Assembly (NCBI RefSeq): GCF_001295845.1
Contig: NZ_LJIC01000059.1
Location: forward strand, 1-64,000
From: Rhodopseudomonas sp. AAP120
GTDB lineage: Bacteria; Pseudomonadota; Alphaproteobacteria; Rhizobiales; Xanthobacteraceae
Length of the DNA stretch: 64,000 bases
Reading direction: 5' to 3'
Shown: piece by piece, positions 35,521 to 42,117 of the stretch
Layout of the letters: each line of letters begins with the position of its first letter
Position numbering within the stretch: the first letter of the stretch is position 1
The notes under the pieces: model-generated
What the model was told of the DNA's origin: nothing
Databases searched by the model: none
What the model saw: the letters and a program-made list of their open reading frames with translations, nothing else
Translations under genes and position numbers: made by a program

Positions 35521-35666
35521 TCGACTAAAGGTGCACTGTCCCAGACTCCCGGCATTGTCCCCGATCAATTACGAGCCGATTCGCCCCGGGTTTCACGCAT
35601 TAATCGCGGCTTGCCGTGGGCAGGGCAGACATCGCGAGGTCGGCCACAAAGGATGTCGCCCGGTGC

Positions 35667-35704
35667 TGTCCTAGTTAGGACACGCGCAAAGGGAACTTAG
35701 GACA
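35667..35704. repeat. Left copy of bipartite direct repeat, with inverted TGTCCTA
   Basis: The 29-bp element at 35676-35704 is TAGGACACGC, ten variable bases, then CTTAGGACA. An overlapping inverted pair TGTCCTA-GT-TAGGACA lies at 35667-35682. The right copy is at 37476-37504, in the same orientation and exactly 1,800 bp away. Together they bound the AT-richer P63C block. Confidence 0.75.
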
Positions 35705-36020
35705 ATTAAGTAGGAGGAACCCACCCCGGCGGGGGGGCATAGCTCTGCGGTCTAGTCGCAAGTGTCTTGCCGCTCGCATCCATGATGGTGGCGGGCATCA
35801 GATGCCGAGCAAGCCGACCTGCGGTAATGTTTGTCCCGGATTACAGACGTTTAAGAGCTCTCGTGCGTGTCCTCGGCGGCCTGAAGGCGTTCCTGCGAAG
35901 ATTTGTTTAGCTGGAAGCCGGAAGCGAACCCGGCGGACGGCCGGAACGTGATCGCTGTCGGCGCTGATGCTGATCGCGCGATCGAAAAGGTTGTCGATCG
36001 CATCCTGCTTCCGCACACAA
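35705..36020. other. Non-coding or decayed sequence inside the left half of the P63C block
   Basis: No reading frame is convincing, and no tRNA or known RNA was seen in this stretch. It may hold the decayed remains of another gene. Confidence 0.4.
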
Positions 36021-36056
36021 AAACGCCCCGCCAGCCGAAAGGCCGGAGGGGCGTTG
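36021..36056. terminator. Hairpin, likely terminator
   Basis: AACGCCCC and GGGGCGTT, with an inner GGCC stem, form a hairpin. T-rich DNA follows on the right (GTTGTTGTTT) and, read leftward, GCGTTTTTGTG follows. It insulates the P63C gene from upstream transcription. Confidence 0.6.
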
Positions 36057-36078
36057 TTGTTTCTGTGTGTCGATGACC

Positions 36079-36146
36079 ATGCTTGCAGAATTAAGATTAA
36101 TGCTTGCACATTTTTGTGCAAGCATTAATCTTAATTCTGCAAGCAT
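36079..36146. promoter_or_regulatory. Perfect 32-bp inverted repeat with TTTT loop before the P63C gene
   Basis: The left arm (36079-36110) and right arm (36115-36146) are perfect inverse complements with a four-base TTTT between. Each arm holds two direct copies of ATGCTTGCA, so the palindrome carries four. A promoter fits inside: TTGCAC at 36104-36109, 16 bases, TAATCT at 36126-36131, and its mirror on the other strand. The AGGAG ribosome site starts at 36147, the base after the right arm. Confidence 0.85.
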
Positions 36147-36158
36147 AGGAGCCCCCCC

Positions 36159-37208
36159 GTGGCAAAGAAATCTGCTGATAAAGTCAAGGCCGCTCTCGCG
36201 CGAGCACAGATTTTGCCGCCAGAACGACGTGCCGAGATTGCGCGGCAAGCGGCAAAAGCTCGCTGGGGAGAGGGGAAGCAACCTCTGCTCGCAAAATATG
36301 GGGCGGCAGACCGCCCCCTAAAAATAGGCAGCATTGAAATCCCTTGTTACGTGCTGGCTGACGGTACGCGCGTCTTGGCACTCCGGGGGCTGTATGCCGG
36401 CATTGGCCTCTCACCCGGTGGTGGTAGGAGCGGCGAGCGCAAAATCGTTGATTTGATGGTCAGTTTAGCAATAAAGGGTATAGATATCAGGGGCTTAATC
36501 GCGCGCGTGGATTCGCCAATTCGGTTTACTCCGCCGCATGGTGGCCCGCCTGCTGATGGCTTCGAAGCAACGATCTTGCCCGATATCTGCGCGGTGCTGA
36601 TAGATGCCCATCAGAAAGGAAAGCTCGGCAAGTATCGAGAGCATCTTGCTACGCGCGCGGCGATCCTCCAGCACGGTTTTGCGACTGTTGGAATCATCGC
36701 GCTCGTCGATGAAGCAACAGGCTATCAAGATTTTCGTCAGCGAGATGCGCTCGCAAAGATTCTGGAAAAGTTTGTTGCAAAGGAGTTGAGACCGTGGGTC
36801 AAGACATTCCCGGCGGAGTTCTACAAACAGATATATCGGCTCAATGGTTGGTCCTACACCGAGAATGCCGGTCGGCCGGGCGTGATAGGGCATTGGACAA
36901 ATAACATCATTTACAAAAGGCTCGCACCCGGGGTCTGGGAAGAATTGAAACGCCTCACCCCCAAGACCCCAAGCGGCTCATACAAAAACAAGCTATTCCA
37001 GCGCTTAACCGAGGATGTTGGGCATCCGAAACTTCGTGAACACATGAGCGCGGTTTTGATGCTGATGAAATACTCTCCGCATTGGAAAGTGTTCATGGAT
37101 CGGCTTGATCGAGAGTTTCCGCAGTGGGGTAAGAATTTCTTGCTGCCGTTCCCGGAGGATTACGCGCCTCCTGGTCTTCCGCCGCCGCCCAACTTCGTGG
37201 ACAATTGA
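36159..37208 (+). CDS. P63C-domain protein, phage-like accessory gene
   Basis: The 349-residue protein has an N-terminal basic part ([13 protein letters not shown]), then a region with [20 protein letters not shown], and a C-terminal P63C domain (about 165-325) with [40 protein letters not shown] and [18 protein letters not shown]63C is known from phages and scattered bacterial islands; its activity is unknown to me. The start is a GTG at 36159, with AGGAG seven bases upstream, right after a 68-bp hairpin. Codon use is AT-richer than the flanking genes, which suggests transfer. Confidence 0.8.
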
Positions 37209-37211
37209 AAA

Positions 37212-37243
37212 GAAAGAGGCCGCCAACTAAGGCGGCCTCTTTC
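37212..37243. terminator. Bidirectional terminator between convergent genes
   Basis: GAAAGAGGCCGCC and GGCGGCCTCTTTC form a perfect 13-base stem with loop AACTAA. The symmetric A/T ends fit a terminator that works in both directions for the P63C gene and the small convergent frame. Confidence 0.9.
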
Positions 37244-37246
37244 AGA

Positions 37247-37381
37247 TCACGGTTTGCGCTTGCGTAGAATTTTATCCAGGGTGCGCTCCAGATCGATCCT
37301 GCGAATACGCGCGGCTTCGGCCTGTGACGGTAAGCCAAAAGTGTTCGCCATTCGCAGCCAGAATTCCTCGTCGGTCTCCAT
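37247..37381 (-). CDS. Small reading frame, 44 residues, convergent with the P63C gene
   Basis: The product [20 protein letters not shown] continues with [20 protein letters not shown] and a KRKP end, an acidic start and basic end with a long helix. GGAG sits six bases before the ATG at 37381, and the shared 13-base terminator follows its stop. I do not recognise it. It could be a small partner of the P63C protein. Confidence 0.5.
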
Positions 37382-37475
37382 TCTGCGCTCCTATCATCCG
37401 GACTTAGGGACGAAGCTTCTAATACCCGATTCTTGCTTACACTCGGTGAGCCAATTTTGGAGGGACCCCAGTAAA

Positions 37476-37504
37476 TAGGACACGCCACAATCCATCTTAG
37501 GACA
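37476..37504. repeat. Right copy of bipartite direct repeat
   Basis: The element reads TAGGACACGC, ten bases that differ from the left copy, then CTTAGGACA. It stands 39 bp before the SOS box of recA. Confidence 0.75.
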
Positions 37505-37542
37505 CTCTGGGTCAAATACGGACAGTGCCTGTCGCCCAAAAA

Positions 37543-37578
37543 GAACATATTGCGAACAGAGAACAAATAGCGTACATT
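37543..37578 (+). promoter_or_regulatory. recA promoter with LexA (SOS) box
   Basis: GAAC at 37543-37546, seven bases, GAAC at 37554-37557 is the alphaproteobacterial LexA box (GTTC-N7-GTTC on the other strand). The -35 element TTGCGA (37550-37555) overlaps it, and after 17 bases comes TACATT (37573-37578). LexA bound here would block recA transcription. Confidence 0.85.
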
Positions 37579-37644: not shown

Positions 37645-38739
<1,095 letters not shown>

Positions 38740-39085: not shown

Positions 39086-41980
<2,895 letters not shown>

Positions 41981-42013
41981 GCGAGGCTCCTGATCCAAAA
42001 AAGATGCTCACGC

Positions 42014-42098
42014 CGTCATTGCGAGGAGCGAAGCGACGAAGCAATCCAGAGGCGCAATGCTCGGGTCGCTGGATTGCTTCGCTTCGCTCGCAATGACG
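42014..42098. repeat. Palindromic intergenic repeat, TCATTGCGAGG type
   Basis: CGTCATTGCGAGGAGCGAAG and the inverse ending CGCTCGCAATGACG match the copies at 6092 and 24910. It lies inside the gcv operon, between gcvH and gcvP. Confidence 0.85.
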
Positions 42099-42117
42099 AG
42101 GAATAGTCAGCAACAAC

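Follow-up and report, generated by a model that had tools for sequence, protein, structure and literature searches.

What is the AT-richer, 1,800-bp block that lies between two direct repeats upstream of recA in Rhodopseudomonas sp. AAP120, and how did it come to be there? A sequence-only reading of the window, the whole 64,000-nucleotide stretch analysed here, had proposed a small mobile cassette with an unknown mover. We examined the borders of the block, searched other genomes for the same ends and compared the insertion places of its relatives.

Borders of the block

The two repeats have the form TAGGACACGC-N10-CTTAGGACA, both on the plus strand (35676-35704 and 37476-37504), and their starts are exactly 1,800 bp apart as had been noticed; no such pair was expected by chance (100 shuffles, up to 3 mismatches allowed). 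Within the 6.16-Mb genome the looser core TAGGACA-N13-CTTAGGACA occurred only at these two places (reversed control, 0). As a genome repeat family TAGGACACGC was rejected, with 11 genome matches against 21 for the reversed pattern. The lower GC content also held, at 54.8% for the block versus 65.5% for the window.

The direct repeats had been taken as the limits of the block, and this proved incorrect. GGTGCTGTCCTAG precedes the left copy and ...AAATACGGACAGTGCC comes after the right copy, a further repeat stands outside each (TGTCCTA at 35667 and CGGACA with its end at 37524), and the true borders are located about 14-25 bp further out, at 35662 and 37529, where the near-inverted termini GGTGCTGTCC and GGACAGTGCC are directly flanked by an exact 8-bp target duplication. 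The view that the repeats are no plain target duplication is thus right for the repeats themselves, but a plain 8-bp duplication stands further out. The right end lies 13 bp from an SOS-type box upstream of recA, which the sequence-only reading had not mentioned; the start of recA was taken at 37645. The features of the block are as follows.

35654-35661, no strand: left copy of the 8-bp target duplication TGTCGCCC, by direct reading equal to 37530-37537
35662-37529, plus strand: transposon of 1,868 bp, non-autonomous, without transposase gene, from the termini, the 8-bp duplication and no own-genome transposase match at E 1e-20
35662-35671, plus strand: left terminus GGTGCTGTCC, from sequence reading
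35667-35704, plus strand: left subterminal repeats, consisting of palindrome TGTCCTAGTTAGGACA (35667-35682) and TTAGGACA (35697-35704) and covering the left direct repeat (35676-35704)
36007-36082, no strand: segment like the transposase-adjoining DNA of loci L163 and L173 (88% and 87% identity), with a terminator-like hairpin at 36021-36060
36079-36146, plus strand: hairpin in which GCTTGC and GCAAGC occur twice each, the upstream element of P63C genes, from comparison of such genes
36159-37208, plus strand: intact P63C-domain gene, 349 aa, GTG start (PF10546, E 1.9e-31; phrog_2384, E 1.1e-98)
37207-37244, no strand: terminator-like hairpin after P63C, with similar 28-42-bp stretches in the cargo regions of many relatives
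37476-37504, plus strand: right subterminal repeats, identical with the right direct repeat, from repeat search
37520-37529, plus strand: right terminus GGACAGTGCC, from sequence reading
37530-37537, no strand: right copy of the target duplication TGTCGCCC, from sequence reading
37543-37557, plus strand: recA SOS-type box GAACATATTGCGAAC (GAACN7GAAC), target landmark, from sequence match, 13 bp from the transposon end

Comparison with a strain lacking the block was possible only roughly, the relative G013 having about 100 bp between the same neighbours and intergenic DNA whose divergence rules it out as an exact empty site. On the minus strand, an open frame of 44 codons running from ATG to a stop (37247-37381) occupies the stretch from the P63C-trailing hairpin to the right end. 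Elsewhere in the window, at 41946-42116, ORF translations contain HCEERSDEAIQ/HCERSEAIQ and resemble a short palindromic repeat of alphaproteobacteria.

An IS1-type transposase in relatives with the same ends

Inside the window copy there is no transposase ORF, and tblastn on 35662-36160 gave chance-level matches only. Two loci with the same ends and exact duplications, L116 (3,612 bp) and L126 (3,529 bp), encode a protein of 341 and 340 aa, respectively. The L126 protein scored 29.5 bits against PF03400 (DDE_Tnp_IS1; cut-off 24.1), the L116 protein is 98% identical to it, and an IS1-type DDE transposase was also found in L038, which belongs to clade B (see below). Relatives of the L126 transposase were present in 83 of 391 genomes (E 1e-20); the own genome of the window had none at this threshold. 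The AlphaFold model of the L126 transposase (mean pLDDT 73.4, residues 160-212 largely unreliable) revealed a helical N-terminus and an RNase-H-like core, and its best PDB matches were DDE transposases and integrases. No LexA-like domain was seen in this model, in which residues 160-212 are mostly of low confidence.

Termini starting with GGT and target duplications of about 8-10 bp are characteristic of the IS1 family, in which single-ORF relatives and subgroups exist. The window copy has inverted termini starting with GGT and an 8-bp target duplication. Its mover, previously called unknown, can thus be named in kind as an IS1-family transposase encoded in same-ended relatives, and since the window copy itself has no transposase gene, it can only be a non-autonomous derivative. 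Tn7- or Tn5053-like ends with TniQ were rejected: TniQ was detected at 11 places in 9 of 26 genomes searched, and at none of these places did the contig carry a listed right end up to 1 Mb away.

Distance and polarity of the relatives to GAACN7GAAC boxes

Forty-three transposase loci were analysed, comprising 40 fetched regions together with L038, L116 and L126; the second 20 regions were hand-chosen and included five beside P63C genes, and cargo frequencies are accordingly not a fair sample. The box played no part in the choice of termini, which relied on inverted match and duplication, and at 29 of the 43 loci the best pair had an exact 8-bp duplication. The other 14 (L163, L164, L166, L167, L168, L172, L173, L175-L178, L181, L183 and L198), several on short contigs, were dropped; L167, L176 and L178 were resolved later starting from the box and were excluded from independent counts.

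The 29 resolved elements included 21 that lie 13-15 bp from a strict GAACN7GAAC, as against 150 of 469,614 random points of the same DNA. Three were imperfect cases, with imperfect boxes at 13 and 15 bp in L165 and L192 and a position in the recA box region in L189, and five had no box (L184, L185, L187, which carries P63C, L190 and L191). Clades were labelled from terminus sequence and not from a tree. In clade A (GGTACTGTCC- or GGTACTGGCC-like termini), all nine strict cases found without the box were at 13 bp, with L176 in addition from the box-first search, and in 10 of 10 strict cases, L176 among them, the transposase gene points away from the box. In clade B (GGTAGTG..TCA-like termini), six of the 12 strict cases were at 14 bp and six at 15 bp, and the transposase reads toward the box in all 12.

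The targets were recA or, in nine clade-B loci (L186, L188, L192-L197 and L200), a box that precedes the gene for a membrane-type peptide of 32-33 aa, with dnaE next in line. The latter box is strict in eight loci and imperfect in L192. The peptide, for which Pfam and NCBIfam gave no match, is presumed here to be SidA-like, after Caulobacter SidA. Two of the nine dnaE ORFs were checked against families: that of L192 was above the NF004226 cut-off and of replicative type, and the L195 stretch, a cut fragment, was below it. imuA was rejected as the second target, the gene being a replicative-type dnaE.

An earlier paper gives the SOS box of Caulobacter as GTTCN7GTTC (PMC9578287), and going by this and by position GAACN7GAAC would be a LexA-type SOS box. 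Since the recA and peptide/dnaE promoters share little but the box, the landmark would be the box or its binder. Comparison of the loci thus indicates that many relatives sit in one orientation and at one distance from probable SOS sites of recA and another gene.

The same ends in other genomes

The right-end pattern CTGTCCGTATTTN{6,13}TGTCCTA occurred 26 times in 25 of the 391 family genomes (reversed-pattern control, 0), with recA within the fetched 3 kb at 12 of the 26 loci; a few of the 26 were cut by contig ends. A strict GAACN7GAAC was found 13 bp from the right end in 13 of 26 loci, the window included, and at 14 bp in one (L098). Among the 12 right ends without a strict box at 13-14 bp, L088 has one with an imperfect second half, and L092, L097 and L103 have a second element type (GGTACYGGCC, GGTACTGGCC-like ends) 8-9 bp away; a few box-less right ends thus abut another element, and the remainder tell against fixed targeting.

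A wider scan of 84,980 species genomes with the pattern TTAGGACACN{7,12}AAATACGGACAG yielded 39 ends, spread over 38 stretches with the labels Bradyrhizobium, Nitrobacter, Afipia, Pseudolabrys, Beijerinckiaceae, Hyphomicrobiales or, in one case, Proteobacteria MAG; this set overlaps with the 391 family genomes, and related species may share one insertion. GAAC was present at 12-14 bp in 18 of the 38 distinct flanks, where about 1.2% is expected per flank (3 of 256); nine flanks have the full box, and 20 have no GAAC at 12-14 bp. The right ends of L216, L221, L222 and L229 lie beside mutually similar GGAAC...GTGAC-like sequences that are not full boxes, and their neighbouring ORFs differ.

Five of the 25 longer stretches L108-L132 (L116, L117, L120, L124 and L126) have a left end of the TGTCC type and an 8-bp duplication that is exact, and partial duplications matched at 7 of 8 positions in L111 and L113 and at 6 of 8 in L110 and L122; in the remaining 16, searched with narrow patterns and including cut stretches, the left end was absent or did not match. 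The wide scan gave a left end in 4 of 39 (L209, L213, L223 and L227), all with exact duplications, L213 and L227 being taken as the contigs of L117 and L126. The shortest wide-scan copy, in L223, measures 510 bp and has both ends and an exact 8-bp duplication; it is MITE-like. Positions 35662-35704 of the window are 84-91% identical to the left ends of L209, L116, L113 and L163. The idea that the fixed outer parts and variable middle of the repeats mark transposase-type sites is right: the repeats behave in this way and are met again at the termini of related elements elsewhere, and this recurrence, together with the termini and the duplication, bears out the mobile cassette.

In L126 and L117, an older right end is followed by an 8-bp sequence and then by the next copy. 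Copies in a few loci are therefore stacked, the newer copy being nearer the box.

Might the position reflect survival and not targeting, with wide insertion and retention of those copies near SOS boxes, where the place is harmless or SOS-linked expression of the cargo is useful? Of the 26 right ends, 12 have no strict box at 13-14 bp and the insertion place leaves the promoter whole, in agreement with this explanation, but selection on the neighbourhood would fix neither the distance, which is 13 bp in all 9 strict clade-A cases from the box-independent search, nor the orientation (22 of 22), and we consider it improbable. It is very hard to credit that the TAGGACA repeats are an activator- or repressor-binding array of the recA promoter inherited by vertical descent: their 22-bp spacing at a fixed box distance resembles one, but among the other 15 genus genomes TAGGACA stands just upstream of the box only in G001, as a worn end, and in G002, as one decayed copy, and the same end was found away from recA, in several loci paired with a left end and flanked by an 8-bp duplication. 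A cassette of a site-specific recombinase (tyrosine or serine, integron-like or Tn7-like) with the direct repeats as att sites, as the 1,800-bp arrangement and the stacked copies at a single site might suggest, is scarcely tenable given the inverted termini with their 8-bp duplication, the DDE transposase inside same-ended relatives and the lack of TniQ near any right end in the 26 genomes searched. The repeats were likewise rejected as excision sites, having inverted termini and a duplication outside them instead, and nothing in the present sequence data points to excision as a circle by recombination between them.

Origin of the window copy

The segment at 36007-36082 corresponds to DNA beside the transposase in L163, a left end being present on that contig too, and in L173 to the DNA that separates the transposase from P63C. 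A complete relative, with transposase, P63C and an exact duplication, stands at recA in L176. Owing to its likeness to these three loci, the window copy is best interpreted as an element of this sort that has lost its transposase part, and it looks like an internally deleted derivative of a transposase-bearing element. Within the genus, G001 has a P63C fragment beside its worn right end at recA, and G009 has a clade-B element at recA with Abi_2 and an HTH/M78 gene, flanked by the duplication CACCAAGA. In G004 (L040 591-2615), a 674-aa ORF resembling by eye an autotransporter or lipase is located between the neighbour gene and recA.

Cargo genes and the P63C hairpin

The cargo set comprised 101 non-transposase ORFs of at least 80 aa from the 29 elements, with HTH_3 in 7, P63C in 4, Peptidase_M78 in 4, SocA_Panacea in 2 and single cases of Abi_2, Fic, a HigB-like toxin, PBECR2 and PBECR3; most other ORFs had no family. 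An unnamed gene of 248-336 aa is common to L116, L126, L169 and L174. The gene of the block that had been described as phage-like was identified as P63C (108.9 bits against PF10546, cut-off 26.1). At 11 of 32 P63C places in the family a transposase of the present kind lies within 4 kb (0.013 expected), and at 15 of 32 there is either a transposase or a right end of the TGTCC type. P63C genes are thus tied to the present elements.

The hairpin noticed in the block is a 31-pair inverted repeat. GCTTGC or GCAAGC was present at -150 to +30 in 17 of 27 P63C genes (22 from family genomes, window included, and 5 from phages; short or unclear frames were dropped), and both were present in 12 of 27, with 0.17 hexamers expected per gene. 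Besides the window, the element was located in L052, L059, L062, L063, L066, L241, L242 and L244; it is present in phages of Salmonella, Gordonia and Pseudomonas and absent in Burkholderia phage DC1. The hairpin was rejected as a mobility structure because it goes with P63C genes, and it belongs to the P63C gene and not to the transposon ends. Across Alphaproteobacteria and phages, the GCTTGC/GCAAGC element looks as if it were the P63C protein's own site.

In phage ST104, the P63C gene follows cI, which is the place of the rex genes in lambda, and our guess is a superinfection or anti-phage role of P63C. Assignment to BstA was not supported, since a PADLOC scan of the window P63C protein, with a library that may lack a BstA model, gave no family up to E 1. 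BstA is a phage-borne gene with the aba DNA element overlapping its start (PMC8585504); the likeness to the window P63C is one of analogy only, the two elements differing in sequence.

Proposed mechanism and known systems

The block is very probably a non-autonomous transposon of the IS1 family, from a group in Hyphomicrobiales that inserts at a fixed distance and in a fixed orientation from LexA-type boxes. An ordinary DDE transposase would insert the element and make the 8-bp duplication, presumably binding the terminal GGTRCTGTCC and the TAGGACA repeats spaced by 22 bp. As the compared loci show, insertion is steered upstream of GAACN7GAAC, to about 13 bp in clade A and 14-15 bp in clade B, and at that distance the SOS promoter downstream of the box stays whole. 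The window copy keeps both ends and an intact P63C gene preceded by a control element that belongs to it; it would have lost the transposase segment and was probably moved in trans. New copies would land between the older copy and the box, which would give the stacks with 8-bp spacers of a few loci.

We infer that the box itself is recognised. Its reader could be the transposase itself, for which we put the chances slightly below even. More tentatively, LexA might act as a tether, with the IS1-type transposase or an accessory protein docking on box-bound LexA. An accessory protein reading the box directly, for example the product of the unnamed gene shared by L116, L126, L169 and L174, is a slightly less likely candidate than LexA.

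The transposons described here thus appear to use an ordinary IS1-type enzyme and to be unusual in homing on LexA-type boxes. They resemble the IS1 family in the PF03400 match of the L126 transposase, the GGT termini and the 8-bp duplication, whereas the fixed distance and polarity to GAACN7GAAC, the passenger genes and the repeated subterminal sites are peculiar to them, and the window copy differs further in having no transposase. Tn7-type transposons are site-specific at glmS and other places, with a 5-bp duplication and targeting of the TniQ type. Both kinds insert into a conserved place in the chromosome at a fixed distance and in a fixed orientation, leave the target gene unharmed and carry variable cargo; in contrast, the present elements have an 8-bp duplication, a single IS1-type transposase and no TniQ found near. 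Integron-like elements of rulB enter repeatedly at one exact position with a XerD-type integrase and a 3-bp repeat (PMC4542609). They too are mobile DNA entering a gene of the SOS network, but their target lies inside a coding gene and is not a LexA-type box. A literature search that covered few subscription papers, and is weak as evidence of novelty, found no report of SOS-box-targeted transposons or of IS1-type elements with this cargo.

In eukaryotes there are elements that tether themselves to transcription factors, and a transposon family reading a transcriptional control site would be their bacterial counterpart. If LexA were the tether, the DNA-damage regulator would guide a bacterial transposon to SOS promoters, and stacked copies would bring cargo of the antitoxin-like, Abi and P63C kinds to the neighbourhood of recA. 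As box, distance and enzyme are all short and defined, the question of targeting is directly addressable in a laboratory strain. For the annotation of Hyphomicrobiales genomes, the finding offers the rule of seeking 8-bp duplications beside GAACN7GAAC boxes. Such targeting would link the response to DNA damage with the movement of defence-like genes.
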